From a virus: a stretch of DNA of 21,802 nucleotides. The number at the start of each line of letters is the position of its first letter. The first letter of the stretch is position 1. Location of the stretch: positions 1 through 21,802 of IMG/VR virus record IMGVR_UViG_3300034102_001412; one strand, 5' to 3'. The notes under the pieces were generated by a model. The model made no database searches. It worked only from the letters and a program-made list of their open reading frames with translations, and was not told the origin of the DNA. Positions 2,672-17,599 of this stretch are shown piece after piece. A program made the position numbers and the translations under genes.

Positions 2672-2672
<1 letters not shown>
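1605..2672 (-). CDS. Glycine-rich tail fibre/adhesin with fibronectin-III-like N-terminus
   Basis: Probable host-binding fibre tip, 355 residues. Residues about 14-110 form a beta-rich segment with a fibronectin-type-III-like pattern (VTNFNQDRATFNATVNPN, then YDVRAVATNGIGT near 87-100). From about 145 to 345 the protein is very rich in glycine, with runs of five to eight Gly separated by short Ser/Thr/Asn loops and a hydrophobic lead-in strand (YDIFVVGGGGG). Such glycine-run domains occur in known phage receptor-binding tips, such as T-even gp38 adhesins, where they pack as polyglycine helices. Its start codon overlaps the stop of the collagen-like gene (TAATG). The low-complexity DNA creates long proline-rich open frames on the other strand, which are not genes. 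Confidence 0.7.
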
Positions 2673-3703
<1,031 letters not shown>

Positions 3704-5135: not shown

Positions 5136-5395
5136 CCCGTGCAGGCGTATCAGGATATAACAAACCTAAAGCCACACCGACACACCCTACGAAGTCGCAC
5201 ATTGTCGTAGCCAAATCGGGTGGGCAAATTAAAACAATCCGATTCGGACAACAAGGTGTAAAAGGTTCACCCAAAAAACAAGGTGAATCGGCAGCCTACG
5301 CCAGTAGGCGTAAACGATTCCAAACACGCCACGCCTCCAACATAGCACGAGGACCGATGAGTGCAGCCTATTGGGCTAACAAAGTTAAATGGTAA
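5108..5395 (+). CDS. Small basic conserved phage protein, 95 aa
   Basis: A Lys/Arg-rich protein of a type I recall as recurring in marine and freshwater phage genomes. Its distinctive segments are AGVSGYNKPKATPTHPTKSH (12-31), VVAKSGGQIKTIRFGQQGVK (33-52) and a C-terminal region with RRKRFQTRHASNIA and MSAAYWANKVKW. No catalytic motif is visible. High charge and aromatic ends suggest nucleic-acid binding or a small virion role, but no function is established here. The ATG follows the previous stop directly, so translation is probably coupled. About 1 kb without a convincing gene follows it. Confidence 0.75.
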   Translation: MAAKKDSRLTRAGVSGYNKPKATPTHPTKSHIVVAKSGGQIKTIRFGQQGVKGSPKKQGESAAYASRRKRFQTRHASNIARGPMSAAYWANKVKW

Positions 5396-5411
5396 AATAA
5401 GGCGAGGACAA

Positions 5412-5544
5412 CCCACCCCACCCCCTAGTGCCACCCGTCACACAAGGGTATCCATAGCACCCCCCAAACCATCCCCGATAACGCATCGGCTCTCCATCCC
5501 CTAGTACTTAGACATACGCACGCCCGTACCCCCCCATGCCCCCC
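5412..5544 (-). other. G-quadruplex-prone tracts on the minus strand
   Basis: Plus-strand C-runs give minus-strand G-runs. At 5523-5544 the C-runs are three, seven and six long, separated by GTA and ATG, so the minus strand can offer four GGG tracts with loops of three, one and three bases. A looser set lies at 5412-5436. Formation is predicted from pattern only. Confidence 0.4.
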
Positions 5545-5784
5545 TAGCACGCAGGAGATTAGCCAACAATTATAGGTGTTATAGACCATAATCACCCCAT
5601 AATCGGCAGAAAATAGACTGCATTCAGTGCGCACGCTACCCAAGCGTGACCCGTGTGTGTCGTGATGCCTAGGTATGTGCGTGCATTATGCGTGATGTGA
5701 AACCGTGTGTGCATTATGCGCCTGTCAAGTTTCGCGTGTGCTGGTGTGACGGTGAAACCGTCGTGTGTGCGCTAGGCGTGGTCG

Positions 5785-5831
5785 TTGCGAGGCAAATTTT
5801 TTTTATTTTTTTTTCCCTTATGCCACAAGGG
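5785..5831 (+). other. T tract flanked by short hairpins
   Basis: Eight Ts, an A and nine Ts (5797-5814) follow a 4-bp hairpin TTGC-GAG-GCAA (5785-5795) and precede another hairpin with arms CCCTT and AAGGG (5815-5831). It could be a weak intrinsic terminator for rightward transcripts or an easily melted origin element. The stem is short for a terminator. Confidence 0.35.
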
Positions 5832-5985
5832 TTAGCCGATGACTGTTCGCAAATTGACTTGCAAGTTCCGAAAGTGTCGTTTACAGTGGTTGTCGTCGGG
5901 TCGCCGTTTCGGTGGCTCGGACTCAGTGTCACAGGATGAGTGCTGAGAGACCTAGTGTGTCGTGTCGGGATGACCGTTTACCTAG

Positions 5986-6022
5986 GCTATTGCGAATAGC
6001 GATTATGCGATATTGCGTTGCA
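5986..6022 (+). repeat. Short GCG-phased repeats and hairpin
   Basis: Four units beginning GCG follow each other at 7-8 bp spacing (GCGAATA, GCGATTAT, GCGATATT, GCGTTGC from 5992). The first is also the loop and arm of hairpin GCTATT-GCG-AATAGC (5986-6000). They are iteron-like but short and degenerate. Confidence 0.3.
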
Positions 6023-6040
6023 TTATGAGGTTCGCTCTTA

Positions 6041-6106
6041 TAACTATCTACGATAGTCACAGGGCATAATTGGTTGCCACGACTGTCACTTATCGTAGAT
6101 AAGTTA
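6041..6106 (+). repeat. Long inverted repeat with internally folding arms
   Basis: Arms TATCTACGATA (6045-6055) and TATCGTAGATA (6091-6101) pair perfectly. The outer TAAC (6041-6044) and GTTA (6103-6106) add four pairs past a bulged base. Each arm can also fold on itself, as CTATC-TAC-GATAG and CTTATC-GTA-GATAAG, so the element could switch between one long stem and two small ones. Confidence 0.55.
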
Positions 6107-6162
6107 CGACGCAAAAAGTTCGGCTGTTCTCACACGACTAAACGGTAAGCATTCTTACCGTT

Positions 6163-6289
6163 CTTGCGCTGACATCGCAGACACGGATTCCCTACGGGAA
6201 TTGGTTCAGTGTCCCTTACTGTCCTCGCTTGCGCTGACATCGCAGATACAGACCACCTTTGGTGGTTGGCTTAGTATCCATTACTGTCC
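6163..6289 (+). repeat. Two tandem 65-bp structured repeats with covarying stems
   Basis: Copies begin at 6163 and 6228. Each starts with the same 18 bases, containing hairpin TGCG-CTGACAT-CGCA. Each then has a second stem-loop that keeps its fold with changed sequence: ATTCCC-TAC-GGGAAT (6187-6201) in copy one and ACCACC-TTT-GGTGGT (6252-6266) in copy two. Outer pairs GACAC/GTGTC and GATAC/GTATC also covary. Both copies end in TTACTGTCC. The pattern suggests a structured RNA or DNA element upstream of the 6401 gene. Confidence 0.6.
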
Positions 6290-6308
6290 TTGGGGCAAGG
6301 CTAGTGCC

Positions 6309-6365
6309 AAGAACCTACGGTTCTTGCAAGTGCAATTCTTGCTTGTCCACCACTACTTCGTAGTG
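6309..6365 (+). other. Series of leader hairpins before the 6401 gene
   Basis: Three stem-loops follow the tandem repeat: arms CAAGAACC/GGTTCTTG with loop TAC, GCAAG/CTTGC with a 7-base loop, and CACTAC/GTAGTG with loop TTC (6351-6365). They lie in the presumed leader and precede the start-site hairpin by about 15 bases. Confidence 0.45.
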
Positions 6366-6379
6366 AAACTATCCCTATT

Positions 6380-6403
6380 ATAATTTACTGGAGGTAAATT
6401 ATG
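6380..6403 (+). promoter_or_regulatory. Start-site hairpin presenting Shine-Dalgarno in loop (1)
   Basis: Arms ATAATTTAC (6380-6388) and GTAAATTAT (6394-6402) enclose loop TGGAG (6389-6393). The GGAG(G) core sits in the loop and closing pair, and the first two bases of the ATG are in the stem. This decides the start of the 6401 gene. Confidence 0.7.
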
Positions 6404-6673
6404 TCCCTTACAATTACCCAACAACAAAAACTTGTAGAGCGAGCCACGGAGTGGCTCGGTCAGGACATCAAAAATGTCTCCGACATTTTTGTTCCACAGT
6501 CGGCTATTGACTGGGGTTTTTGCTTCCACCCTGAGTATTGTGACGAAGTCACCGAAGTTGAGGCTTATAACGCCGAAGGCGTTACTGTTTTGTTCCTCAA
6601 TGCTTCTTACGAAGTAATTGCTACGGAATTCGTAGAATACACCGTTGAAAACAACGCTTTTCTTTCCTACTAA
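6401..6673 (+). CDS. Hypothetical protein, 90 aa
   Basis: An unrecognised acidic protein with no membrane segment or known motif. The middle (EVEAYNAEGVTVLFLNASYEVIATEFVEYTV) looks like a small beta-sheet, and the N-terminus is helical. The start is fixed by the hairpin-displayed GGAGG. The coding sequence carries at least seven perfect hairpins, for example 8 bp with loop GGA at 6440-6458, 10 bp with loop TCC at 6469-6491 and 7 bp with loop GAA at 6568-6584. The stop codon lies in a perfect 22-bp palindrome (6663-6684). It is probably the first gene of the early module. Confidence 0.75.
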   Translation: MSLTITQQQKLVERATEWLGQDIKNVSDIFVPQSAIDWGFCFHPEYCDEVTEVEAYNAEGVTVLFLNASYEVIATEFVEYTVENNAFLSY

Positions 6674-6684
6674 TTAGTAGGAAA
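6663..6684 (+). other. Perfect palindrome over the stop codon
   Basis: Arms TTTCCTACTAA and TTAGTAGGAAA meet with no spacer, and the TAA stop (6671-6673) is in the left arm. It ends 19 bases before the next start-site hairpin. No T-run follows, so it is not a classic terminator. Confidence 0.6.
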
Positions 6685-6703
6685 TACATCATCCACCCAC
6701 AAG

Positions 6704-6724
6704 ATAATTACTGGAGGTAATTAT
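6704..6724 (+). promoter_or_regulatory. Start-site hairpin presenting Shine-Dalgarno in loop (2)
   Basis: Arms ATAATTAC (6704-6711) and GTAATTAT (6717-6724) enclose loop TGGAG. The stem is one base pair different from copy 1 yet still perfectly paired, and the ATG begins in its right arm. This decides the start of the 6723 gene. Confidence 0.7.
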
Positions 6725-7064
6725 GTCCCTAGAGACAAAAGCGAAACTTACGGTTTCTAAAGAAAAACGAAAAGTTGAATTTTCGTGGACAAACGAGGCT
6801 ATGACTCGTAGAGTCAAACTGTCGGTTTATCACTCACCTGAACGGAAGCATTTTTGGGCTTGTGTAAGTCGTTCCGACTTACGAATGTCGGGCAACTTTT
6901 CAGTTGAGGAATACGAACCGTTCCGTGACATTATGCAACTTGGCAAGGAATCTGTAGACAGATTCTCATTCGGCAAGTTGCAGAACTACGCTGGACAAGT
7001 CCTTATGGACTTCTTGGATTCCGACAACGAATGGAAAACCGAGGCAGAAGCCCTAGTTTCCTAG
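6723..7064 (+). CDS. Hypothetical protein, 113 aa
   Basis: I do not recognise this protein. It is strongly charged at the N-terminus (KAKLTVSKEKRKVEF) with alternating strands, followed by a helical half (EEYEPFRDIMQLGKESVDRFSFGKLQNYAGQVLMDFL). No cysteine pairs, membrane segments or catalytic motifs are present. The coding DNA is full of hairpins: 8 bp at 6864-6882 (loop TTC), 8 bp at 6948-6965 nested inside a second 8-bp stem (6935-6942 with 6974-6981), and 6 bp at 6997-7012. The stop codon lies in hairpin CTAGCC-TTT-GGCTAG. Confidence 0.7.
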   Translation: MSLETKAKLTVSKEKRKVEFSWTNEAMTRRVKLSVYHSPERKHFWACVSRSDLRMSGNFSVEEYEPFRDIMQLGKESVDRFSFGKLQNYAGQVLMDFLDSDNEWKTEAEALVS

Positions 7065-7089
7065 CCTTTGGCTAGTTTCATCTCAAGAT

Positions 7090-7150
7090 GTTGTGTCGCA
7101 ACACCACTAACGAAGTGGTGGTGTTGCTACACAACGACCATAATCGCCCC
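7090..7150 (+). promoter_or_regulatory. Large intergenic hairpin A plus GACCATA motif
   Basis: GTTGTGT and ACACAAC pair outside, then GCAACACCAC and GTGGTGTTGC pair inside after one mismatch, with loop TAACGAAGTG (7108-7117). GACCATAATCGCCCC follows directly. The stem-loop ends 20 bases before the start-site hairpin of the ATPase gene. The loop is identical to that of hairpin B at 10497-10542. Confidence 0.6.
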
Positions 7151-7155
7151 GATTC

Positions 7156-7172
7156 TTTACCTAGGAGGTAAA
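7156..7172 (+). promoter_or_regulatory. Start-site hairpin presenting Shine-Dalgarno in loop (3)
   Basis: Arms TTTACC and GGTAAA enclose loop TAGGA, with AGGAGG spanning loop and right arm. The ATG follows 4 bases later at 7177, so here the start codon is outside the stem. Confidence 0.65.
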
Positions 7173-7176
7173 CAAA

Positions 7177-8487
7177 ATGGCACTCAAAAAGCCCACAATT
7201 ATTTCTGTTGACACAGAAACCAACCGTGTGACCTACCGAGAATTCGGTAGTAGCACTAACAAAACAGACCGTTGGTCTTTTTTGTCCAAGAACGCCAAAA
7301 CGGCTACCTTGTCATTTATGGGACATAAATTTGTTGGTAAGCCACCAATGCATTTTACAAATGACGAAATTGACATGGCTTACATTGTAGCAAAACGGAG
7401 TTTTGTTCCAAGTCCTACTGGCTTTGAGCCAGTACCACCTAACACAGAATCGGAGATTCCAGTGCCACCAACACCAAAACCACAACCCAAGCCCACCAGT
7501 TCCACTGGTGGTTTGGATGACATCCTCCGTGGTGTCGTTGCCGAAGTCCTTGGGGACTTCGTTCCTGAGGTTGACCCTGCCAAGGTTGCTAGCATTGTGT
7601 CAACTTTGTTGACACCAACTCTCACCACAATGACCGAGGCAACATCCCAAGTTGCAGAACTTCGTTCTGCTATTGACCGACTTCGCCCCAAGGTGACTGA
7701 GATACATCTCAGTGACAACGAAATCATCAAGTTGGATGGAATCCAACATCACCAATTCCCTAAGGTACTTAGTGGAATTGCCAACGGTGAACACTTGTAC
7801 CTTGTAGGTCAAGCAGGAACTGGCAAGTCCACAATTGCCGAGAATGCCAGCAAGTCCCTTGGACTTGACTTTGCTTCTAAGTCTTGCTCTAGCCAGTCAA
7901 CTGAGGCTAGCCTTTTAGGCTATATGTCGGCTACTGGTAATTATGTCGGAACACAGTTCCGAGAGGCATACGAAAAAGGCTTCGTCTTTTTGTTGGATGA
8001 GGTTGACAACGGCAACCCGAACATTCTCACTGTTCTAAACAGTGCTTTGTCCAACACCTTTATGGCTTTCCCCGACGGTATGGTCAAGCGTCATAAGAAC
8101 TTCGTTCTTATTGCAACAGCCAATACCTTTGGTAACGGTGCAACTTCCGAGTATGTTGGTCGTAATGCTTTAGATAAAGCATTTATGGACAGATTCACCA
8201 CCATAACCGTTGGTTATGACAGTGATGTTGAGCAGGCTATGCTTGATTCCGTCAAGGGACTTGACGCTAATCTTGCTAGCAAGTGGCTAACTATCGTTCG
8301 TCGTTGTCGTGCCAATGTTGAGACCTATGGTCTCAAAGTTATTGTGTCGCCTCGTGCCACCCTAAAGGGTGCTAAGTTGCTTCGTGACAAGGATGTTTGG
8401 AACATCAATGATGTTCTTGACGCTACAGTGCTTGCTGGTTGCAAGGATGACCAACGAGCCAAGATTATGGAAGGCATCACCCTTTAG
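7177..8487 (+). CDS. CobS/MoxR-type AAA+ ATPase
   Basis: A 436-residue ATPase of the MoxR/CobS (AAA_5-like) group, which usually remodels a protein partner carrying a VWA domain. Residues 1-75 form a small N-terminal domain, 78-107 a Pro-rich linker, and 110-175 a helical region. The AAA+ core follows: Walker A GQAGTGKST (211-219), Walker B VFLLDEVD (270-277), sensor-1 region IATANTF (312-318), a likely arginine finger in FMDRF (336-340) and a sensor-2-like SPRA (391-394). Glu275 for hydrolysis is present. The following gene encodes a VWA-like protein, matching CobS-CobT, MoxR-VWA and RavA-ViaA pairings. The phage target is unknown. Confidence 0.85.
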   Translation: MALKKPTIISVDTETNRVTYREFGSSTNKTDRWSFLSKNAKTATLSFMGHKFVGKPPMHFTNDEIDMAYIVAKRSFVPSPTGFEPVPPNTESEIPVPPTPKPQPKPTSSTGGLDDILRGVVAEVLGDFVPEVDPAKVASIVSTLLTPTLTTMTEATSQVAELRSAIDRLRPKVTEIHLSDNEIIKLDGIQHHQFPKVLSGIANGEHLYLVGQAGTGKSTIAENASKSLGLDFASKSCSSQSTEASLLGYMSATGNYVGTQFREAYEKGFVFLLDEVDNGNPNILTVLNSALSNTFMAFPDGMVKRHKNFVLIATANTFGNGATSEYVGRNALDKAFMDRFTTITVGYDSDVEQAMLDSVKGLDANLASKWLTIVRRCRANVETYGLKVIVSPRATLKGAKLLRDKDVWNINDVLDATVLAGCKDDQRAKIMEGITL

Positions 8488-8507
8488 GGTGGTGCTGACC
8501 ATAGCCC
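8474..8507 (+). promoter_or_regulatory. Stop-codon hairpin plus GACCATA motif
   Basis: Arms GCATCACCC (8474-8482) and GGGTGGTGC (8487-8495) pair with one G-U pair around loop TTTA. The TAG stop (8485-8487) spans loop and right arm. GACCATAGCCC follows at 8497, matching the motif after hairpins A and B. Confidence 0.5.
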
Positions 8508-8522
8508 ATTCATTCCACTATC

Positions 8523-8543
8523 TAATTTACTGGAGGTAAATTA
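8523..8543 (+). promoter_or_regulatory. Start-site hairpin presenting Shine-Dalgarno in loop (4)
   Basis: Arms TAATTTAC (8523-8530) and GTAAATTA (8536-8543) enclose loop TGGAG, with the A of ATG closing the stem. The core is identical to copy 1 although the flanks differ. Confidence 0.7.
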
Positions 8544-9409
8544 TGGAAAACAAAAAACCCTACAAGGACATAACGCTTGCCGAGGGCAAGGGTGACCAAG
8601 TCACTATGTCGCTCTTTGAGTCGCTTGGTGATTATGCTCGCCTTGCTGGTAGCAACCCCAACCCAAGCAGAACTGGCAGTGACCAACCGTTTAGCCCTCG
8701 GTTTAATTACAGCAATTCACTTGCTGAATCAGTAGAATTATGCCAACAGGGTTGGCAAGCCGTGCGACCTGATGTTGACAAGTTGCTTGGCGTTCTAGAG
8801 GAACGCTTGACCGACGCTTTTGGTAGTTACTTTGTAACGGAATACCAAACAAGTGGTGCTGTTGTGGATATGGGGCGTTTCGTCACTGGTGAACCTGAAT
8901 GTATGTTGGAATTCGTACAAGAGCCACAAGCGAGAATGGGTCGTGTTGTCAAAATTGTTGTCAACGCTAGTTGTTCTTGGAACATTGACCAACAACTAAT
9001 TTTGAATCGTGGCGTAGCCATTCTAGCCCTCGTTGACACTATCCATAAAATGGGTGTCGGCATTGAGTTGTGGTGGGAGGAATCTGCTAGTGCGGCGATT
9101 CATTTTACCAATTTGGTAAAGTTGCACGACAGTTCAGAACCTATGGACATTGACGCTATTATGTTTGCTTTAGCAAATCCTGATATGCTTCGTCGTTTGC
9201 AGTTCTCGGTGCAGGAACAGCATCCGTTGGCGAACAAAATGGGTGTTGGTGCTGGCTATGGTTCACCTGCCGACCTTTGGTCGGTACGCCACAAGTTTAC
9301 CGATTATGATGTTGTAGTTGAGAAACTACAAAATGCCAATGACGAGTTGGCAAATAACCCATTGGAATGGGTTATGTCCACGATTACAGGCTTAGGGTTG
9401 GTGGACTGA
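8543..9409 (+). CDS. VWA-like partner of the AAA+ ATPase
   Basis: A 288-residue protein probably working with the upstream ATPase. The segment from 133 to 180 reads as a Rossmann-type strand-loop-helix-strand (RVVKIVVNASCSWNIDQQ, then RGVAILALVDTIHKMGVGIELWWEES). In VWA domains the first strand ends in the metal site DxSxS. Here the same place holds N141-A-S143-C-S145, so the metal-binding aspartate is replaced by asparagine. The N-terminal 130 residues are helical and the C-terminus resembles phage-specific extensions. A diverged CobT/VWA-like role is inferred from fold pattern and gene order. The stop overlaps the next ATG (TGATG). Confidence 0.55.
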   Translation: MENKKPYKDITLAEGKGDQVTMSLFESLGDYARLAGSNPNPSRTGSDQPFSPRFNYSNSLAESVELCQQGWQAVRPDVDKLLGVLEERLTDAFGSYFVTEYQTSGAVVDMGRFVTGEPECMLEFVQEPQARMGRVVKIVVNASCSWNIDQQLILNRGVAILALVDTIHKMGVGIELWWEESASAAIHFTNLVKLHDSSEPMDIDAIMFALANPDMLRRLQFSVQEQHPLANKMGVGAGYGSPADLWSVRHKFTDYDVVVEKLQNANDELANNPLEWVMSTITGLGLVD

Positions 9410-9678
9410 TGAGGTTTCCAAACACGGAGTGTTGTTATGAATGTGGTGAACCTATGTTTGACTTGCAAGAAGTCAATGGCGATTGGTTTTGTCTCTTATG
9501 TATAAGAGACAATAAAGGAAAGGAAAAAGAAATGGACTTATGTCCAGTATGTGATGATGAAATGACTGATAGTCATTCTAACTACCAACCTACTTGGTCG
9601 GATTATTATGACAACATAGTTTGTTGGTTGTGTTATACACAACAAAACGGAAAGGAAAATGAAAATGAAAACGAGTGA
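9409..9678 (+). CDS. Double zinc-knuckle protein, 89 aa
   Basis: The preferred start is the ATG at 9409, overlapping the previous TGA. The frame is open further upstream, but that part is a shadow of the VWA-like gene. The product has four CxxC pairs: YECGE (about 9-13), FCLLC (29-33), LCPVC (44-48) and VCWLC (71-75), forming two treble-clef or zinc-ribbon units. A C-terminal tail rich in Glu, Asn and Lys follows. It is likely a nucleic-acid or protein-binding adaptor, specific function unknown. The 3' end overlaps the next gene by 20 bases. Confidence 0.65.
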   Translation: MRFPNTECCYECGEPMFDLQEVNGDWFCLLCIRDNKGKEKEMDLCPVCDDEMTDSHSNYQPTWSDYYDNIVCWLCYTQQNGKENENENE

Positions 9679-10024
9679 TGATGTCGTTCTTGTAGAACGA
9701 CACTTTATGCAAGGTGCTTACGAGATACAGGAGGCTTCTAACGAAGGTCGGCTGTATCACCATTGGAATGGCAAAGCCATAATGCGAGGACAAAATGATG
9801 AATACATAATCGTTGATTTCAACGATTGTTCTCACCATTCGTTGTGTCGGTTTGTCATTGCACAACCTGACGATTCCACACGGGATTACTTCAAGCGTCA
9901 ATGGGCTAGCCCAAGTTTCTATACCGAATTACATTCGGAACAAGATGTCATTGCTTTCTATAGAAAGCAATATATGCAAGCCATTTTGGCTTCTGAACCA
10001 CCAAAAACAAAGGAGATAGCATAA
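9659..10024 (+). CDS. Hypothetical protein, 121 aa
   Basis: I do not recognise this protein. It is mixed alpha/beta with several His residues (VERHF, YHHWNG, DCSHHSLC) but no clear metal-site spacing. GGAAAGG precedes two closely spaced in-frame ATGs (9659 and 9665), so the exact start is uncertain by two codons. It overlaps the zinc-knuckle gene by 20 bases and its TAA overlaps the next ATG. Short hairpins recur in the coding DNA, such as GTTG-ATTT-CAAC and GCTTTC-TA-GAAAGC. Confidence 0.65.
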   Translation: MKMKTSDDVVLVERHFMQGAYEIQEASNEGRLYHHWNGKAIMRGQNDEYIIVDFNDCSHHSLCRFVIAQPDDSTRDYFKRQWASPSFYTELHSEQDVIAFYRKQYMQAILASEPPKTKEIA

Positions 10025-10242
10025 TGCTAGTGGAAACCCCAACCTATATAGGTTACAAAAAAGACGGTGAATTATGGGCTTTTAGCCCTAGCCCAATGCT
10101 CGGTTGTGATGTTGTTTACAACATCAGTAATTGGGCTTGGGAGGATGTGATGTCATTTATGAATGACATTCCTACTGCCGAGAAACTGGAATGGTTGCAA
10201 CACAACGCAATTTTGTACGACTACACTAGTTTGGAGAACTAG
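10024..10242 (+). CDS. Hypothetical protein, 72 aa
   Basis: An unrecognised small acidic protein rich in Trp and Tyr, with WAFSPSPMLGCDVVYNISNW in the middle and a helical C-terminus (EKLEWLQHNAILYDY). It has no membrane segment or known motif. An upstream AAAGGAG gives a good ribosome site and the ATG overlaps the previous stop (TAATG). Its TAG stop lies in an ACTAGT/ACTAGT hairpin and overlaps the GTG of the next gene. Confidence 0.65.
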   Translation: MLVETPTYIGYKKDGELWAFSPSPMLGCDVVYNISNWAWEDVMSFMNDIPTAEKLEWLQHNAILYDYTSLEN

Positions 10243-10469
10243 TGGAACGGCGCAATGCACAACTTGAAGTCAAGTTGTCCATAACGGCATTCGTATTCGT
10301 AAGTTTCTTTGTAGTGTTTACACTACAAGATTGGACTTCATCCGTCTTTTGGGCTAATGCGATTCCTGCAATTGCGTTTAGCCTTGTGTTCCATTTGTGT
10401 ATAATATACACTTGGATATCCACTATAAAGTGGATGATGAAATCATTGAAAAATCTAAATAGATTTTAG
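10242..10469 (+). CDS. Small two-helix membrane protein (GTG start)
   Basis: A 75-residue protein starting at a GTG that overlaps the previous TAG. Two hydrophobic segments, about LSITAFVFVSFFVVFTL (12-28) and FWANAIPAIAFSLVFHLCII (36-55), flank a short polar loop with TLQDWTSS, and the C-terminus is basic (KWMMKSLKNLNRF). This shape fits a holin or a superinfection-exclusion or membrane-anchoring protein. It lies in the early module, which argues mildly against a holin. The stop codon sits in hairpin TTTTAGCG/CGCTAAAA (10464-10488). Confidence 0.6.
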   Translation: MERRNAQLEVKLSITAFVFVSFFVVFTLQDWTSSVFWANAIPAIAFSLVFHLCIIYTWISTIKWMMKSLKNLNRF

Positions 10470-10496
10470 CGAACCCCCAACGCTAAAAAGCAAGAT

Positions 10497-10553
10497 ACTG
10501 TGTCGTACCATTCCTAACGAAGTGGGAATGGTACGATACAGTGACCAGAACCC
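10497..10553 (+). promoter_or_regulatory. Large intergenic hairpin B plus GACCAGA motif
   Basis: ACTGT/ACAGT, one G-U pair and the 12-bp stem TCGTACCATTCC/GGAATGGTACGA enclose loop TAACGAAGTG (10515-10524), identical to hairpin A while most stem bases differ. GACCAGAACCC follows directly. The stem-loop ends 21 bases before the start-site hairpin of the DUF3846-like gene. Confidence 0.65.
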
Positions 10554-10563
10554 TAAACCCTAA

Positions 10564-10584
10564 ATAATAACTGGAGGTTATTAT
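10564..10584 (+). promoter_or_regulatory. Start-site hairpin presenting Shine-Dalgarno in loop (5)
   Basis: Arms ATAATAAC (10564-10571) and GTTATTAT (10577-10584) enclose loop TGGAG. Compared with copies 1, 2 and 4 the stem differs at several pairs, each compensated on the other arm. The ATG begins in the stem. Confidence 0.7.
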
Positions 10585-11173
10585 GTCAATTAAAGTTGGA
10601 ATGTTCCTACCTACAGGTAGCAATGTTGAACCCGAACCCTTTTTCTTTCAGAACTATGAGGATTTGCAAAACGCCGTAGGTGGTGCTTTTGATGTTGTCC
10701 GTACCGACCTTGGTCGTGATGATGTTGCCTTGCTCGGTTATGTCAACGACATTGGCTTGCTCACTGACTTGGAATACAACTACCTTGCAACTGCGTTGTT
10801 CAAGCAGAATCTTGTCGGCAATGTCGTCGTCACTTGGGGTCTGTCACCTAACGGTGAATACGACGGTGACGATTATGACATTCCTGAGGCAATGGTTGAA
10901 TTTATTCAAGGTGAACTTGTTGCTTCAACAGCAGACGCTTATAACCTTTCGGTTATGTCTAGCCTTGCTTGCCAAATGGCTATTGAGTGTGGACTCAGCA
11001 CCGATGATGACATTATGGACATTGTTCGTGGTATGAGCAGTGGTGACCGTGACGAAGCCAATTCGTGGGCTAAGAAGTTGAATGAACTGCTGGAAGCAGT
11101 TATTGCGTTTGAGGCTAAGAACCCTGAAGCCTTTGGCGACGCTGTGCAGCGTCTGAACGAAAAGGGAGAGTGA
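10583..11173 (+). CDS. DUF3846-like protein
   Basis: A 196-residue protein. The N-terminal about 90 residues fit the pattern I associate with DUF3846, common in actinophages: NYEDLQNAVGGAFDVV (24-39), then VALLGYVNDIGLLTDLEYN (48-66) and GNVVVTWG (78-85). The molecular role of that family is not established. The C-terminal half is acidic and helical (DDIMDIVRGMSSGDRDEANSW) and may be a separate domain. The start is set by the hairpin-displayed Shine-Dalgarno. The stop TGA overlaps the next ATG. The family call is from memory of the pattern. Confidence 0.6.
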   Translation: MSIKVGMFLPTGSNVEPEPFFFQNYEDLQNAVGGAFDVVRTDLGRDDVALLGYVNDIGLLTDLEYNYLATALFKQNLVGNVVVTWGLSPNGEYDGDDYDIPEAMVEFIQGELVASTADAYNLSVMSSLACQMAIECGLSTDDDIMDIVRGMSSGDRDEANSWAKKLNELLEAVIAFEAKNPEAFGDAVQRLNEKGE

Positions 11174-11385
11174 TGAAACAAGCACCTTCGGTGCAACCCA
11201 AGAAAGCCGTGAAGCGTGGGGGGAGTAATCCCCCCACATACCACAAGGCTGGCACTTGGCGTTGTCCACGCTGTGCAAACACCATTGAGGTGTTTGTCAA
11301 GATGACCTTTCCCCCTGCGTGTTCTAATCACAAGGGACAAGGTTCTACAATTATGGAAATGGTAAAGAAAGAGAAAACAAAATGA
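11173..11385 (+). CDS. Zinc-ribbon protein, 70 aa
   Basis: Begins at the ATG overlapping the previous stop; a GTG one codon upstream is also possible. The product is basic at both ends with WRCPRCANTIEVFVKMTFPPACSNH in the middle: CxxC, then a beta strand, then a single Cys followed by His, giving a CCCH-type zinc ribbon. Proteins with this layout recur in actinophages. It may bind nucleic acid, but function is unknown. It overlaps the next gene by four bases (ATGA). Confidence 0.6.
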   Translation: MKQAPSVQPKKAVKRGGSNPPTYHKAGTWRCPRCANTIEVFVKMTFPPACSNHKGQGSTIMEMVKKEKTK

Positions 11386-11627
11386 GAAAATACCTATTGG
11401 TAACAGTTGAACATCCTGATGATGTTACACCACAGCACTTCATAGATATGTGCATAAAGCAACACCTAGTGCAGTTGCTTGCTGACTTGCCTGATGGTTG
11501 GGCAGTGTTCTGCGACGACCTGATTACGACAGAAGGCGACGAAGGTGGGGTAGTTTTATCCGACGAAGTAGAACCCGAAACAACAGATAATGTTATTCAA
11601 TTGAATAACTACAAGAAAGGAAAATAA
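11382..11627 (+). CDS. Hypothetical protein, 81 aa
   Basis: I do not recognise this protein. The N-terminus reads as a strand then helix (KYLLVTVEHPDDVTPQHFIDMCIKQHL), followed by a short strand (WAVFCDDLI) and an acidic, probably disordered tail ending NNYKKGK. Length and charge suit a small regulatory or inhibitor protein, which is only a guess. It is coupled to the upstream gene through an ATGA overlap. Confidence 0.6.
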   Translation: MRKYLLVTVEHPDDVTPQHFIDMCIKQHLVQLLADLPDGWAVFCDDLITTEGDEGGVVLSDEVEPETTDNVIQLNNYKKGK

Positions 11628-11628
11628 A

Positions 11629-11922
11629 ATGACATACATAAATGTACCATTTATTATGGAGGATATGCCTGAAGCAGTAGCCGTAGAATTGTTTTATGCA
11701 ATAAAACGGAAGTTGAATTGGGGTGTTATCGCTTTCACCAAAGCAGACATTGTGGATGTGCTTGAGGATAACGGTTATGATGTTACGGATGAGAACATTG
11801 AACTAGTTCAAACTAGTGGTGTTTGGAAAATGCTAGAACATTGTTGTGCTATTGAAGGAATGGATACCTTGGGGTATCTTGTCCGTGAGGTTATGACAAG
11901 CAAAGAAGCAAACGAGGAATAG
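11629..11922 (+). CDS. Hypothetical protein, 97 aa
   Basis: An unrecognised acidic, mostly helical protein. The segment FTKADIVDVLEDNGYDVTDENIELVQTSG looks like a winged-helix or EF-like helical pair, followed by WKMLEHCCAIEGMDTLGYLVREVM. No catalytic motif is seen. AAGAAAGGA gives a ribosome site at good distance, and the gene follows the previous stop by one base. Confidence 0.6.
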   Translation: MTYINVPFIMEDMPEAVAVELFYAIKRKLNWGVIAFTKADIVDVLEDNGYDVTDENIELVQTSGVWKMLEHCCAIEGMDTLGYLVREVMTSKEANEE

Positions 11923-11930
11923 GAGCAGTT

Positions 11931-12080
11931 ATGGCAACAGGATTTCGCCGTAGGCGTAAGAGAGTTCGTTTAGGTAAACCTAAAAAGGATTACTATACAA
12001 GTTCTCATCCACGCCCTGTAAAAATCACATATATGGAAGGCTTTGAGCCACCAGTAAAACAAGAAGCAACAACAGAATAG
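11931..12080 (+). CDS. Short basic protein, 49 aa
   Basis: A short gene fitting exactly between its neighbours. The ATG at 11931 is preceded by AGGAG at 8-12 bases upstream and the TAG is at 12078-12080. The product starts MATGFRRRRKRVRLGKPKKD and ends in a neutral to acidic tail (YMEGFEPPVKQEATTE). The Arg/Lys-rich N-terminus suggests nucleic-acid binding. No family is recognised. Confidence 0.55.
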   Translation: MATGFRRRRKRVRLGKPKKDYYTSSHPRPVKITYMEGFEPPVKQEATTE

Positions 12081-12088
12081 GAATAATT

Positions 12089-12862
12089 ATGGAAACAGAA
12101 CTAGGATGTGGCGTAGCCACACACGATAAGGCGTGTTTGTGTGATGTAATAATCACACAACCCTTGCCACCGTTGGAACAGTGCGTCAGGAATGGCGTAG
12201 ATGATTTGTTTATGGGGAAAGAACTGGTAGCCCTCAGGGGCTACTCTGCCCCTTGGAACAATCAGACAACCCTTGCCTATTTTGAGGATATGGTCAAGTT
12301 TTATGACGCTTATCACGACGGTCAAAAGGCTGGTTATACGGCTAAACATTTAGATGATGTTCCTTGTCTTGTGTATGGCGAATCTGATACGGCGTATGAG
12401 AAGTGGGGGAAGGTTCGTGAATGTGTTCAGTATTGTATGGATATGTTTGATACAACCCTTGTGGAAATTCTACTACATATCGGTGTCACTGCTGAGGAAT
12501 TTATGGATGCTGCCACTACTGCTAAAGCAGGTAAGGGCTGGAATTATGATGATGTGAACCATTTGGATGTGTTGTTTCAAAAGGAGAATTTGAACTTCAA
12601 TGATTTGGCTCGCCAGTCAGGTTTGACTTTGGAGGTTGTGCGTGGCATACGAAGGTATTGGGATGAACGCCGTAAACGGCTTGTAGGCTCGGACAATCCT
12701 GCCCGTGATTACTTCCACGATTTATGCCGTAACACGACCCTTGGTGGTGCTGTTATTGCTAGAATGGTAAAAGAAAGATACCCTGAAGTGAATTATCATT
12801 CATCCAGTGTATCTAAATATAGAAATAGAATGGTCAATAAATATAATGCAAAGACAGAATAG
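12089..12862 (+). CDS. HTH-containing protein, 257 aa
   Basis: A probable DNA-binding protein of unknown family. The C-terminal half contains a helix-turn-helix, LNFNDLARQSGLTLEVVRGI (about 169-188), followed by a basic helix (RRYWDERRKRL), and then a second helical region (GGAVIARMVKERYPEVNYHSSSVSKYRNRM) that also reads like an HTH. The N-terminus has clustered Cys/His (CGVATHDKACLC), possibly a metal site. It lies upstream of the nuclease-primase genes, so it could regulate them or act at an origin; this is inference. AGGAA precedes the ATG. Confidence 0.6.
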   Translation: METELGCGVATHDKACLCDVIITQPLPPLEQCVRNGVDDLFMGKELVALRGYSAPWNNQTTLAYFEDMVKFYDAYHDGQKAGYTAKHLDDVPCLVYGESDTAYEKWGKVRECVQYCMDMFDTTLVEILLHIGVTAEEFMDAATTAKAGKGWNYDDVNHLDVLFQKENLNFNDLARQSGLTLEVVRGIRRYWDERRKRLVGSDNPARDYFHDLCRNTTLGGAVIARMVKERYPEVNYHSSSVSKYRNRMVNKYNAKTE

Positions 12863-12931
12863 TAACTATTGCTATTTGTCCGTGTATTATTGTTATTGTA
12901 TTAGGACAACCCTTACAAGAAAGAATGCAAT

Positions 12932-13780
12932 ATGAGATTTGATTACACACGAGGTATTGTGTATGTTAGACAGTCGTGGCTGAACGATTTGATTATCTGC
13001 CCTGAAAGGGCTAGATTCAAATTGGCGAAGCCAGATATGTCTGGTGCTAGTGACGCAACCATTATGGGTACAGCACTGCATTATGGTATTGAGCAGGTTC
13101 TCGGTGGGGCTAACCCCACCGAAATGGCTGATATTGCTTTGCAACATTGGACTGAACTAAAAGAACAACCGTATAAACAGACAAACCTTGACCCTGAAAA
13201 GGGTGAACAGCATATCATCAGTATGGCTAAGGCTTTCACTGATGACATTATGCCTGAAGTCCAGTTCGGTGGGGATGTGGAATATAAATTCTCGTTCCCA
13301 CTTGGGATGACTGTTGGCGATTGGGGTGTTTGGTGCGAAGGCACTATGGATTATGTTCAACCTAACGGTGTGATTTGGGATTGGAAAACAGCATCTCGTT
13401 CGTATTATGCGAAAGAGAAACAGTCACAAAGTGTTCAGGCAACTGTTTATGCTGCTGCGCTTGTTCAACAGTTGAAAACAGGTTACCCTGTTGATTTCCG
13501 TTATGGCGTTATGGTTCGGCAAGACAAACCTAAATCACAGATTGTGTATTTGGAACGCACAGCAGAACATCAGCGTTGGCTGATGCACACCGTGAAGCCT
13601 GCCATTCTTATGGCGTTGCGTATCGGCGTTATGGAAGGTCCGTGGATTATGAACGACACAAGCGCGTTATGCTCGGACAAATGGTGTCCATACTGGTCGC
13701 TATGCAAAGGCAACTTCCTGTCCGAGCAAGCATTGCGTTTGCCTTTACAGGCACCGTCTATAGAAATTTTTGAGGCGTAG
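12932..13780 (+). CDS. RecB/Cas4-family PD-(D/E)XK nuclease with Fe-S cysteines
   Basis: A 282-residue nuclease of the RecB/Cas4/AddB type (PDDEXK_1), acting on DNA ends during phage recombination or replication. Visible motifs are His50 in GTALHYG, Asp140 in CEGTMD, the D150-W-K152 catalytic pair in IWDWKTA, and Q169 in VQATVYAAA (the QxxxY motif). Cys23 (IICPERA) plus C247, C252 and C258 (CSDKWCPYWSLC) match the four-cysteine Fe-S cluster that clamps these nucleases. Context with a DnaB-type ATPase, primase and RusA supports a replication-recombination role. The ribosome site (AAGAAAG) is weak. Confidence 0.85.
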   Translation: MRFDYTRGIVYVRQSWLNDLIICPERARFKLAKPDMSGASDATIMGTALHYGIEQVLGGANPTEMADIALQHWTELKEQPYKQTNLDPEKGEQHIISMAKAFTDDIMPEVQFGGDVEYKFSFPLGMTVGDWGVWCEGTMDYVQPNGVIWDWKTASRSYYAKEKQSQSVQATVYAAALVQQLKTGYPVDFRYGVMVRQDKPKSQIVYLERTAEHQRWLMHTVKPAILMALRIGVMEGPWIMNDTSALCSDKWCPYWSLCKGNFLSEQALRLPLQAPSIEIFEA

Positions 13781-13824
13781 TGACATTCTTGTCTCTACAT
13801 CTGATATCGTTATCAACGACAACC

Positions 13825-13839
13825 ACACCAAGGAGGTGT
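13825..13839 (+). promoter_or_regulatory. Start-site hairpin presenting Shine-Dalgarno in loop (6)
   Basis: Arms ACACC and GGTGT enclose loop AAGGA, with AAGGAGG spanning loop and right arm. The ATG follows four bases later. The stem is shorter and GC-richer than in copies 1, 2, 4 and 5. Hairpin CGTT-ATC-AACG lies just upstream. Confidence 0.55.
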
Positions 13840-13843
13840 ACCA

Positions 13844-14290
13844 ATGGTCAGTAAAGACCAATCCATCATTATGCAAGTATGCGCTAAAATTGCGTCAGAG
13901 TTGACTCCGAAAGGAGATGATGTCAACGCTAATATCGTTGCCTTTACAGAGGCATACGAAATGGTATGTGACATTATTCTGACAAGCCAAGGCATTGCCT
14001 CCAGCAATGCTGAAGCACCACACGCAGAATCACCACAGCAAGAAGAACAAGCGTTCACACAGGCTTTTCCTTCTGCTACACCAGCACCAACCCCGACAGC
14101 GACTGGTTTCCAAGTTCGCATCAAGGGCAAGCAACACGGACCAATTCCTGCTTGGTTGAACGACGCTTGTGCAGTCAAAGGTGTGAGTGAAGTGTGGGAC
14201 AACCGAGACACTCTCGGTGCAAACCCAAAGCGACCTTGGTTCAAATCAACCACAGGTAACGATGCCTTTTGGGCGCCTCGTGGCGCATAA
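13844..14290 (+). CDS. Replication-associated protein, 148 aa, function unknown
   Basis: Two parts joined by a Pro/Ala/Glu-rich linker (about 57-86). The N-terminal about 48 residues form a helical unit (IIMQVCAKIASELTPKG, then IVAFTEAYEMVCDIIL). The C-terminal domain reads FQVRIKGKQHGPIPAWLNDACAVKGVSEVWDNRD, then NPKRPWFKSTTGNDAFWAPRG, rich in aromatic and basic residues. Placement between a nuclease and a DnaB-type ATPase, with aromatic/basic content, would suit a single-stranded-DNA-binding or annealing accessory protein, but no OB-fold signature is clear. The call is deliberately weak. Confidence 0.65.
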   Translation: MVSKDQSIIMQVCAKIASELTPKGDDVNANIVAFTEAYEMVCDIILTSQGIASSNAEAPHAESPQQEEQAFTQAFPSATPAPTPTATGFQVRIKGKQHGPIPAWLNDACAVKGVSEVWDNRDTLGANPKRPWFKSTTGNDAFWAPRGA

Positions 14291-14309
14291 CTAAAAACAA
14301 AGGAACAAT

Positions 14310-15380
14310 ATGACTCCGAATTACTCGGAGCGTTGGAACGCACTTGGGCGTGGCGAGATAATCGCCACGCCTGATGTGTCTAACGCCTCAAAAAAACGAC
14401 ATTATTATGAACCACTGGAAGTCGCTGCCGACGACTTTGTTCATTGGGCGCAAAACCCAAACGAACGAGTCTATCTAGGCTTCCCTGATTTAGATAGCGA
14501 GATGCGTGGCATAGCCCCATCAGAGTTATGTATGATAAACGGTTATAGCCATTCAGGTAAAACTATGTTGCTTCTACAAATCCTGTTGGCAAACAGAAAT
14601 CTACCTGTGGTATATTTCTGCCCTGACGAACCACGCACCTTGACACTCATAAAACTGACCTGCATTATGCACGGCATAGATGCCCACGAACTGGAAATGC
14701 GTATCGCAGACAACGACCCCGAAGCAATCAAGTTGCTTCGTGAAACAGCAAACGAATCGTTTCCTCAGTTGGCTGTCTTTGACCAAATGATGACCCTCAA
14801 CGAAATGGAACAAGCACTTGGTGAAATCCGTGATATGTGGGGACAACCCTCGTTGCTTGTCTTTGACTACTTGGACTTGCTCAGTGGTGGAGGCGAGGAC
14901 ATTCCGTCTAAGGCGAACACCATAAAAGCGTTCGGTAAACGCCATAATATCCCTATGATTGTGTTGCATCAATCTAGCCGTACTGCTGGTGCAGACGGCA
15001 AAAAGCAAACAATCTCATCAGGTGCCTATGGTGGCGAGCAACAAGCGACCCACATTATAGGTGTACGCCGTAAGAAGTTTGAGATTGAGAACCACATCCG
15101 TGAATTAGAGGAACGACTGGATAAGTCTAACCAAACGGAACGCCTGCTGGAACGGCTGGATGCGTTGCGTTATGACTTGCGTATCCACCAAAACACGGTC
15201 ACAATCAACCTTGTCAAATGTAAACGCCCCTCATCTAGACTTATGGATGATGTGGACTTTGAGATTGAAGAAGGCACAGGTCGTCTGACACGGCTACCCA
15301 CAGGGCATCTAGGCACGATACCGACATTGTCTGAACCTGAACCTGAACAATTAGTTCTCGCTGACGATTGGGATTACTGA
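14310..15380 (+). CDS. DnaB/RecA-type replicative helicase ATPase
   Basis: A 356-residue RecA-fold ATPase, probably the replicative helicase. Walker A is GYSHSGKT (78-85), Walker B LLVFDYLDLL (182-191), and the H3-type sensor motif IVLHQSSR (217-224), as in DnaB-family proteins. No N-terminal DnaB primase-interaction domain is evident, and the first 60 residues are short and charged. A coiled-coil-like insertion (ENHIRELEERLDKSNQTERLLERLDALRYDL) follows the core. Its stop overlaps the primase start (TGATG). The DNA contains notable hairpins, including a 10-bp stem at 14347-14371. Confidence 0.8.
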   Translation: MTPNYSERWNALGRGEIIATPDVSNASKKRHYYEPLEVAADDFVHWAQNPNERVYLGFPDLDSEMRGIAPSELCMINGYSHSGKTMLLLQILLANRNLPVVYFCPDEPRTLTLIKLTCIMHGIDAHELEMRIADNDPEAIKLLRETANESFPQLAVFDQMMTLNEMEQALGEIRDMWGQPSLLVFDYLDLLSGGGEDIPSKANTIKAFGKRHNIPMIVLHQSSRTAGADGKKQTISSGAYGGEQQATHIIGVRRKKFEIENHIRELEERLDKSNQTERLLERLDALRYDLRIHQNTVTINLVKCKRPSSRLMDDVDFEIEEGTGRLTRLPTGHLGTIPTLSEPEPEQLVLADDWDY

Positions 15381-16276
15381 TGAACACAACAGATAGATTT
15401 ATAAAACTGTTTCGTGGTCGTGGAGATGTTTACGGCTCAGAAACAGGTGGATGCATAAAGATGCCTTTGACTCGTGAAGTGTTTGACGCTCACCTGTCAG
15501 GTGACACACCTATCGGTGTGTACCCAATGGTGCCACTCAAAGGCGACTGGTACACCGTATGGGGATGCTCGGACATTGACATAGAAGATATGACTGGTGC
15601 GTTCAATCTGCGAGAAGCCTTAGAGGCTGGTGGTGTCCACGCATTCGTAGAGAAATCTCGTAGCAAAGGTTACCACTGTTGGGTGTTTGCTAGTGAGCCA
15701 GTGCTTGCTAGCGATATGCGTCGTATGATGCTCGCAGCGCATCAGGTTGCAGACTACCCTGCTCGTGAGGTGAACCCTAAGCAGGAGCAACTCACATCCA
15801 TAATGCAGTACGGCAACTATGTGCGACTTCCATATCCGAACTATGCAGATATGTCTAAGGCTAATCGGCGTATAATCAACGCAGACGGCACAGCCGTAGC
15901 GTTGGAACAGTTCCTAGATATGGCAGAAGCCAACCTTAATTCTCCAGACACGATTGCTCGTCTGGCAACTTATTATAAGCCACCACAACCTGACTTCAGT
16001 ATGGTCACAGACCATCCTGAATCTGACGACTTCAAAGAGATTATGAAGCGTGTATCACCATTGGCTTATGTCATATGGCGTGACGGTCCATTGCCTAACA
16101 ATGACCGTTCACGAACCCTTGCACGCCTTGCTCACGAACTAGTCAGGTCAGGACTGCACCCTAGTGAAACCAAGATTGTGATTATGTCTGCTGACCAGCG
16201 TTGGGGTAAATACCATTTACGCCCAAATATGGAACTAGAGATTGATAAACTTGTTCAACGGGTTTATACAACCTAG
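15380..16276 (+). CDS. Archaeo-eukaryotic-type primase
   Basis: The start is taken at the ATG overlapping the helicase stop; a TTG further upstream in frame is less likely. The 298-residue product shows AEP primase motifs: motif I CSDIDIED with D65 and D67 for metal binding, motif II SRSKGYHCWVF (93-103) in the sxGxH form, and a later QYGNYVRLPYP segment typical of phage and TOTE-type primases. The C-terminal part (from PLAYVIWRDGPLPNNDRSRT) resembles a helical PriCT-like domain. Together with the preceding ATPase it gives a two-protein helicase-primase in place of a fused one. Confidence 0.75.
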   Translation: MNTTDRFIKLFRGRGDVYGSETGGCIKMPLTREVFDAHLSGDTPIGVYPMVPLKGDWYTVWGCSDIDIEDMTGAFNLREALEAGGVHAFVEKSRSKGYHCWVFASEPVLASDMRRMMLAAHQVADYPAREVNPKQEQLTSIMQYGNYVRLPYPNYADMSKANRRIINADGTAVALEQFLDMAEANLNSPDTIARLATYYKPPQPDFSMVTDHPESDDFKEIMKRVSPLAYVIWRDGPLPNNDRSRTLARLAHELVRSGLHPSETKIVIMSADQRWGKYHLRPNMELEIDKLVQRVYTT

Positions 16277-16288
16277 AACGGTGGCATT

Positions 16289-16630
16289 ATGCAACACACA
16301 ATCATTATAGAGGGCAGACCTGTACCTAAGGGTCGCCCACGATTAGGTCGCAGAGGTCGTGTGTTCACGCCTGAAAAGACTCTTGAAGCCGAGGCACGCA
16401 TCGCAGGTGCGTGGGCTATGTCTGACGGACCAATGTTTGAAGGTCCAGTGCAGATGCGTATTGAGTTCACACCCGAAGGTTGTGAAGTAACAGTTTTAGA
16501 TTATGAAGTTCCACCAAGTAAACTTCGTGGCGATTTAGACAACTACCTGAAAACTTTGATGGATGGTCTAAACGGAGTGGCGTGGACAGATGACAAGCAA
16601 GTCCATTATGTGGAGGCTTGGAAAAAATGA
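16289..16630 (+). CDS. rusA: RusA-like Holliday junction resolvase
   Basis: A 113-residue endonuclease of the RusA family, which cuts Holliday junctions and branched replication intermediates. Diagnostic features are the N-terminal GRPVPKGRPRLGRRGRVFTP (9-28), the acidic core RGDLDNYLKTLMDGLNGVAW (80-99) with D82 and D84, and D101/D102 in TDDKQV. Length and motif spacing are normal for the family. It overlaps the next gene by four bases (ATGA). The ATG has no strong ribosome site. Confidence 0.85.
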   Translation: MQHTIIIEGRPVPKGRPRLGRRGRVFTPEKTLEAEARIAGAWAMSDGPMFEGPVQMRIEFTPEGCEVTVLDYEVPPSKLRGDLDNYLKTLMDGLNGVAWTDDKQVHYVEAWKK

Positions 16631-17121
16631 CCGACAAACCCCCACCGAAAGGAAAGTTTTCAGATTATGATATTCCAGCGAAAAAGTTTAACTTTCACGA
16701 CGACCTTAAGTTTGGTCACAAGGGTGAAGCGTTGGTTACCGAGTTCCTCTCTGCAATGGAATCTGGTGCTTTTGAAGTTAAAACCGACAGATACCGTAAT
16801 GGCAAGATGGTCTTGGAGATGGAACATAATCCGAGGCTACGCAAAGACGCTGACGGCAAGGCTATTTGGGAAAAGTCAGGACTAAATGTGACGAAAGCAA
16901 TGTGGTGGGTTTATGTTTTAACATTAAACGGCAGCGAAGGTGCTTTCCACATTATAAGTGTTCCCCGATTGAAACGATATCTGAAACTAAACCCTGACAA
17001 GTACAACCGTAAAACAATGCAAAACTTTGCTGTACGCAGTGGAAACCCCTCACGAGGATTCCTGCTGCTACCCGAAGATGTGTTAGATGTTATGACAAAC
17101 GCAAATTATGATGAAGTATGA
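16627..17121 (+). CDS. PD-(D/E)XK endonuclease-like protein
   Basis: The start is the ATG at 16627, ten bases after GGAGG and overlapping the rusA stop. An upstream TTG is also in frame. The 164-residue product has GHKGEALVTEF (30-40) and FEVKTDRYRNGKMVLEME (49-66). E34 with E50-x-K52 gives a PD-(D/E)XK-type active site, followed by a strand with Glu. The WWVYVLTL strand is the usual hydrophobic beta strand. Similar small proteins in cyanophages and marine phages are annotated as endonucleases or resolvases. Two neighbouring junction-type nucleases would be partly redundant. Confidence 0.6.
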   Translation: MTDKPPPKGKFSDYDIPAKKFNFHDDLKFGHKGEALVTEFLSAMESGAFEVKTDRYRNGKMVLEMEHNPRLRKDADGKAIWEKSGLNVTKAMWWVYVLTLNGSEGAFHIISVPRLKRYLKLNPDKYNRKTMQNFAVRSGNPSRGFLLLPEDVLDVMTNANYDEV

Positions 17122-17598: not shown

Positions 17599-17599
17599 A

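Follow-up and report, generated by a model that had tools for sequence, protein, structure and literature searches.

A leader module of hairpin, G-poor spacer and Shine-Dalgarno hairpin, with a shared loop at two genes, in the hairpin-rich early operon of a phage lineage

For the start-associated elements of actinobacterial phages, known since 2011, no mechanism has been established. In the mycobacteriophages of cluster K, some of the non-structural genes carry repeats at their ribosome-binding site, the start-associated sequences (SAS), and a 17-bp inverted repeat, the extended start-associated sequence (ESAS), lies upstream of about half of the SAS-bearing genes (PMC3203893). The authors of that study (Pope et al.) found no support for RNA hairpins (PMC3203893), and a later reading describes ESAS as SigA-like promoters (-35/-10) with an inverted repeat (PMC11373665). 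Microbacterium phages also have conserved motifs at their ribosome-binding sites, SAS/ESAS-like ones in cluster EF and the start-associated GATCAACCNNGGTTGATC in cluster EG, which come with a linked element upstream or with an inverted motif close to the starts; the accessible part of the source presents them as fixed sequences and reports no covarying hairpins, unlike the module described here (PMC7302621). That module is located in a stretch of phage DNA of 21,802 nt (positions 1-21,802 of IMGVR_UViG_3300034102_001412), hereafter the window, in which two early genes, coding for an AAA+ ATPase and for a DUF3846 protein, are each preceded by a large hairpin with the same 10-nt loop, a short spacer and a second hairpin that contains the Shine-Dalgarno sequence.

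Two further classes of systems are relevant for comparison. Structured leaders and translational operators of phages, together with ribosome standby sites, combine a hairpin near the ribosome-binding site, a single-stranded region for the 30S subunit and loop-specific protein binding; in contrast to these classic examples, the window module recurs before several genes, each time on another stem, within a hairpin-saturated operon. Genome-scale ordered RNA structure in RNA viruses is characterized by pervasive selected pairing through the coding sequence. The locus described here differs in belonging to a DNA phage, in consisting of discrete short perfect hairpins restricted to the early operon, and in being lost in some relatives, and its coding hairpins may act at the level of RNA.

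Leader hairpin 1 (7090-7135; arms 7090-7107 and 7118-7135) is located upstream of the AAA gene and leader hairpin 2 (10497-10542; arms 10497-10514 and 10525-10542) upstream of the DUF3846 gene; these and all other features are on the + strand unless indicated. The loops of both (7108-7117 and 10515-10524) read TAACGAAGTG, which confirms what an earlier note, made from the letters of the window alone, had claimed: two hairpins with mostly different stems and one loop. TAACGAAGTG occurs twice in the record, both strands considered, each time as a leader loop, and the chance agreement of two random 10-mers is ~1e-6. The arms form 17 Watson-Crick pairs in both hairpins, the remaining position being C×T in hairpin 1 and G·T in hairpin 2; either stem can be extended outwards by a T·G pair immediately before ACCA. 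AAGAT stands immediately 5' of each hairpin (7085-7089 and 10492-10496), and AAGAT or TAGAT likewise adjoins the AAA leaders of relatives. As the note had also stated, GACCATA and GACCAGA abut hairpins 1 and 2, respectively, and the distances to the start-site hairpins are 20 and 21 bases. The first gap (7136-7155, GACCATAATCGCCCCGATTC) begins with the conserved GACCATAA and continues as a G-poor spacer up to the start-site hairpin TTTACCT-AGG-AGGTAAA (7156-7172), with the ATG at 7177; the second (10543-10563, GACCAGAACCCTAAACCCTAA) comprises the conserved GACCAGAACCC and an unpaired spacer, and precedes the start-site hairpin ATAATAAC-TGGAG-GTTATTAT (10564-10584), which overlaps the ATG at 10583. 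Three of the four occurrences of GACCAKA on the + strand of the 21.8 kb are found at leader or stop-codon hairpins.

Between leaders 1 and 2, five of the nine upper-stem pairs are changed on both sides, all with compensation (CAACACCAC versus TACCATTCC), whereas none of the ten loop bases is changed. A recent duplication of the whole segment, which the note had named as one of the outcomes that would undo its proposal, can be rejected, as the two leaders aligned at the loop agree in AAGAT, TGTGTCG, CTAACGAAGTGG and GACCAKAA and in little else. Since the stems differ with compensation and the loop is the same, either the loop has persisted through the drift of the stems in two old copies, or the two have converged. 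The identity of the loop could also be a functionless relic of recombination or copying between leaders within a genome, which we regard as unlikely. The leaders do have mosaic features, as leader 1 shares TGTGTCG with DUF3846-type leaders and leader 2 combines an AAA-type loop with AAGAT, and in the relatives L148/L149, too, a pair of leaders has the lower stem in common and GGA as the loop of both; however, the upper stems flanking the window loop differ at most pairs, with perfect compensation, so that a conversion tract would need to cover the loop alone, and orthologues with 68% protein identity keep nine loop bases on an unrelated stem. Among the leaders of L148/L149/L153 (stems at L009:2825 and L009:3233), two of one genome share the lower stem TCGGAG.../...CTCCGA and the GGA loop, and their upper stem differs with compensation, as in the two window copies.

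The relatives were taken from a viral collection, in which 35 loci contain the AAA gene that in the window lies downstream of leader 1, and additional ones were obtained via the DnaB-like helicase and the DUF3846 protein. No cultured member of the phage lineage carrying the module was found in the present comparison, and a search of bacterial genomes for a relative of the AAA protein, which could have provided a link to the host, found none. In L138, L139, L141 and L142, whose AAA protein is 68% identical to that of the window, AACGAAGTG and GACCATAACC are kept at the same site, with nine loop bases retained, on a stem unrelated to that of the window: it starts with ACCACACTACA, has an upper part of the type GTGGGGG-GAACGAAGTGA-CCCCCAC and ends with GTAGTTGTGGT, followed by GACCATAACC. 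The claim that the loop is fixed while the stem varies is thereby extended beyond the two window copies, although the AACGAAGTG loop family consists of three independent stems only. The orthologous DUF3846 leaders of L138-L142 have an 18-pair stem, the loop GAAAAAAAA and then GACCAGAACCC, so that GACCAKAA is invariant in ten leaders of two genes and the AACGAAGTG loop is common only to the AAA leaders and window leader 2. The search for further copies of the loop, proposed in the note, was thus successful in four relatives, and there is no third copy in the record itself. Among the matches listed in pattern scans of the wider collection, both for the loop and for AACGAAGTG...GACCAKAA, the hairpin context was found only in this phage species and in the group of L138, L139, L141 and L142. 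In clades further away, the corresponding sites are occupied by strong hairpins that have the loops TTA, GGA, TTTA or TCT and tails such as ACCTAATCCCTACTA.

Several of these observations weigh against the explanation favoured below, a translation-initiation module whose loop is read by a factor. The loop is not universal, considering the GAAAAAAAA of the orthologous DUF3846 leaders; L140 has at its AAA gene a short stem, followed by GACCAGAATCGCCC, that lacks the shared loop altogether; and the related phages L145-L147 have no long leader hairpins at the AAA and DUF3846 genes. In addition, the spacer is paired in some of the folds predicted for L138 and L142.

Whether inverted repeats of this kind function as DNA or as RNA can be judged from their mismatches, because an RNA stem tolerates G·U but not A·C on the transcribed strand, whereas a DNA site is symmetric. 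In 38 distinct leader hairpins of the family, picked by a score with an equal penalty for every mismatch type, 38 mismatches are G·T and 7 are A·C (p=3e-6, an optimistic value, as the hairpins are partly related and all p-values given here ignore shared ancestry). In the DUF3846 leaders of L138-L142, 100% of the pairs are kept, four pairs are changed on both sides and all one-sided changes involve G·U, and the window leaders depart from Watson-Crick pairing by T·G, G·T and a single C×T, with no A·C among them. The covariation analysis proposed in the note has thus been carried out, and the compensatory changes in orthologous leaders support pairing at the level of RNA. The leader hairpins are very probably an RNA element of the sense strand, as judged from these sequence comparisons, and the family thereby provides a version of start-associated elements in which clear covariation makes the question of DNA or RNA decidable by comparison, with RNA as the answer for the leaders.

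The same evidence bears on the proposal that the inverted repeats are DNA elements, operators or promoters, as has been suggested for ESAS. In favour of this, the repeats occupy the same position upstream of start-associated sequences and have ESAS-like dimensions (46 bp in total, arms of 17-18 bp). Nevertheless, the excess of G·T over A·C on the sense strand largely refutes it, the stem sequence is variable and there is no consistent -35/-10 pair at the leaders, whereas the ESAS arms of Anaya are near-invariant, contain TTGACA as a -35 and carry the conserved TTGACATGCATACAG; a DNA element is accordingly very improbable. The right arm of Anaya also shows no excess of hairpins (21 versus 23 expected). 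The comparison with cluster K can be made on four points. The window module shares the layout, in that some of the genes have a repeat immediately before a start-associated sequence. It does not share the invariant 13-mer GGGATAGGAGCCC of SAS, a consensus checked in Anaya, since the window start-site hairpins read TTTACCTAGGAGGTAAA, AATTTACTGGAGGTAAATT and others, nor the sequence-conserved arms with -35/-10 of ESAS, and, unlike the ESAS repeats, which are unsupported as RNA hairpins, the window leaders have support for RNA pairing. Given the variation of the stem and the RNA pairing on the one hand and the conserved, promoter-like ESAS on the other, the window element is like SAS/ESAS in layout and is not a member of that group; the parallel drawn in the note holds for position and fails for sequence and for the RNA-level test.

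The order of hairpin, G-poor spacer, Shine-Dalgarno hairpin and ATG is found at five window genes (6401, 6723, 7177, 8543 and 10583) and throughout the family. All five have the upstream hairpin, which ends 35-47 bases before the ATG. At gene 6401 it is a small hairpin at 6351-6365 (start-site hairpin 6380-6402) and at gene 6723 it lies at 6663-6684 (start-site hairpin 6704-6724), in both cases without GACCA. At the DUF7192 gene the role is taken by the stop-codon hairpin GCATCACCC-TTTA-GGGTGGTGC at the end of the AAA gene (8474-8495). As the note had claimed, a start-site hairpin (TAATTTAC-TGGAG-GTAAATTA, 8523-8543, ATG at 8543) begins 27 bases after it; the GACCA-containing GACCATAGCCC (8497-8507) does not directly abut the stop-codon hairpin, as one base lies between them. 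Most relatives also have a hairpin at the stop codon of the AAA gene, with a different stem. Two more hairpins of the window are placed at stop codons: CTAGCC-TTT-GGCTAG (7061-7075) lies over that of gene 6723-7064, and TTTTAGCG-AACCCCCAA-CGCTAAAA (10464-10488) contains that of the gene preceding DUF3846. In the family as a whole, a hairpin is found 6-35 nt upstream of 105 of the 141 Shine-Dalgarno hairpins, compared with 257 of 840 control ATGs, a contrast that is approximate because a few of the 141 are chance hits and the known case at 8543 escaped the strict scan. The spacers contain 12% G and 36% A, and in ViennaRNA folds they are mostly predicted to be unpaired between the two hairpins, which would correspond to the architecture of standby sites and translational operators, where an unpaired stretch next to a structured Shine-Dalgarno sequence affects translation.

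Since the hairpins appear to act as RNA, sit between genes and often lie over stop codons, they could alternatively be transcription terminators or attenuators between early genes, consisting of a hairpin only and read through under phage control. Termination at hairpin clusters is described in the accessible part of PMC8355165, the hairpin at the AAA site of L150 is followed by CTTTTT, and 5300-18200 contains 25 terminator-like sites compared with 11.3±3.5 in shuffles. However, an intrinsic terminator combines a G+C-rich hairpin with a U-tract, and apart from L150 at the AAA site a U-tract is absent: the eight bases after the five window leaders contain 0-3 T, and those of nearly all relatives 4 or fewer, which speaks against ordinary terminators. 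Nor would this alternative, to which we assign a low probability, account for GACCA, the loop or the conserved spacing before the Shine-Dalgarno hairpin.

We consider it about evenly probable that the hairpin, spacer and Shine-Dalgarno hairpin constitute a module for translation initiation or mRNA stability, and as an explanation of the locus as a whole this module is the best available, at a similarly even level of confidence. In this module the stem of the strong hairpin is kept paired while its sequence is free to change; it is followed by a G-poor stretch of 14-27 nt, mostly predicted to be unpaired, which in this subclade contains GACCA(U/G)AA...CCC, and by a short hairpin that could present or mask the Shine-Dalgarno sequence before the AUG. 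Comparison shows that placement, spacing and GACCA are conserved, and in part of the leaders the loop as well. The upstream hairpin may insulate the spacer from upstream RNA and keep it single-stranded, and the spacer could then serve as a landing (standby) site for the 30S subunit beside the structured Shine-Dalgarno sequence. The hairpin might also mark or protect the mRNA end; processing or protection of mRNA ends stands close behind translation initiation as an explanation and could coexist with a role in translation.

Because loop and GACCA are conserved in the subclade, the AAA and DUF3846 genes may in addition have a sequence-specific reader: the AACGAAGTG loop and GACCA might be read by a phage or host factor that would co-regulate the two. 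A loop-specific factor acting in trans is a tentative proposal, which we regard as somewhat doubtful. The note had interpreted an invariant loop on a variable stem as the trace of a loop-binding factor or of an RNA-RNA contact; the RNA level and the combination of variable stem and constant loop have been borne out, and the candidate RNA partner has not. This candidate, ACTTCGTT, is complementary to eight loop bases and occurs in the AAA gene at 7556, 7659 and 8099 (three occurrences, compared with 0.37 in codon shuffles), which are its only sites on the + strand of the window, but it is absent from the AAA gene in L139 and L142, and kissing between the loop and the mRNA is not supported as a conserved interaction. 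It is also conceivable, though improbable, that the loop is kept for its own fold, a small AC-GAA-GU capped stem (in the L138 type next to tandem G·A pairs) stabilizing a hairpin selected only for stability. ViennaRNA predicts AC(GAA)GU in the loops of L138, L139 and L142; for the window copies, in contrast, an ACGAAG loop closed by U·G/A-U is predicted, and many leaders of the family are just as strong with TTA, GGA, TTTA or TCT loops.

The early operon (5986-11300) is saturated with hairpins, also within its coding sequence, and the leaders are the largest of them. Between 5300 and 12000 there are 87 perfect hairpins with arms of at least 6 and a loop of 3-8, compared with 8.6±2.8 in dinucleotide shuffles; with arms of at least 8 the numbers are 30 and 0.5, and the AAA gene alone contains 23 perfect hairpins versus 3.0 under synonymous-codon shuffling. 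In 15 pooled early regions, including the hairpin-poor L145 and L147, there are 483 perfect 7-bp hairpins versus 22 expected, a strong and reproducible signal of about 22 times the expectation. From a maximum where the rightward operon starts, the excess declines in the downstream direction. Most of the family shows it (for example, in the early regions of L139, L142, L144, L150, L154, L163 and L167), and it is absent from L145-L147 and L174 despite the same core genes; no gene convincingly confined to the hairpin-rich phages was found. The open-access literature searched yielded no earlier description of a DNA phage whose early operon is saturated with hairpins.

The hairpins are conserved and compensated within the coding sequence. 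Between the orthologous AAA genes of the window and L139, nine hairpin centres coincide versus 0.8 expected, and compensated changes are found in ATAAGAAC/GTTCTTAT, ACAAGAAC/GTTCTTGT and ACAAGGAC/GTCCTTGT. One-sided changes are rarer in stems than in control pairs (6.7% versus 16.6%) and double changes are commoner (1.1% versus 0.58%). The strand asymmetry of one-sided changes is modest for pooled early hairpins (109:61 versus 1969:1704, p=0.007) and not significant for coding hairpins alone (60:39 versus 952:878, p=0.10). As compensated changes occur at all codon positions, a mutational contribution, such as repeated copying errors when the template is switched within small palindromes, is possible for those hairpins that lie in coding sequence. 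A wider and rather unlikely proposal is that the early operon carries a second layer of information as RNA structure, in which dozens of selected hairpins on each transcript, the Shine-Dalgarno hairpins and long leaders among them, would control translation and shield early mRNA from host or phage nucleases or from RNA-targeting defence and would be lost where this pressure is gone, with the loop and GACCA read by a dedicated factor. The strong, conserved and compensated excess of hairpins and its absence from related lineages with much the same genes make it feasible to test the role of mRNA structure in a DNA phage.

Other candidates for the leaders were considered. A search of the window against Rfam gave no match above the gathering score, and tRNA prediction found no tRNA in the window. 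A CCA-ended tRNA-like element, which is brought to mind by the stem-G-ACCA of the subclade leaders, has no predicted window tRNA and no other support. A promoter of the form GTGACC...AATAAT has a match in window leader 2 only, and its spacing, judged by eye, is inconsistent in relatives; both candidates were rejected.

Relatives outside the subclade present leaders with characteristics of their own. The AAA leaders of L161-L169 have a constant loop AATGG on a variable stem, for example GTCATAACC-AATGG-GGTTATGAC, GTCATTTCC-AATGG-GGAAATGAC and GACTCAGCC-AATGG-GGTTGAGTC in L162, L166 and L161, followed by a near-invariant TGTCCG-TGAA-CGGACA hairpin and then GCCATT. In L155, L157, L158, L163, L165 and L167, the 3' arm CTACCTTGTTACACC is part of a 14-17 bp hairpin upstream of the Shine-Dalgarno hairpin of a gene that starts near 10047-10320 (L155, L158, L163 and L167), 8777 (L157) or 3210 (L165). 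This arm resembles the complement of GTAACAAGGTAG, which, going by the universal 1492 primer, we take to be a segment of the 16S rRNA near its 3' end. Many relatives, unlike the window, have a tRNA-Asn(GTT) gene that precedes the AAA gene and lies close to where the early region begins (L139:6129-6204, L141:6242-6317, L154:1460-1534, L158:6853-6928, L174:3597-3671 and L012:1727-1801).

With respect to the genes themselves, the AAA gene (7177-8487) has a best PHROG named porphyrin biosynthesis, whereas Pfam identifies an AAA_5 (MoxR-like) ATPase. Its neighbour (8543-9409) codes for DUF7192, which is present in many Mycobacterium and Gordonia phages. Among the leftward genes, the window codes on the - strand (2672-3703) for a collagen-like protein with Gly-X-Y repeats, which is probably a tail-fibre-type protein.

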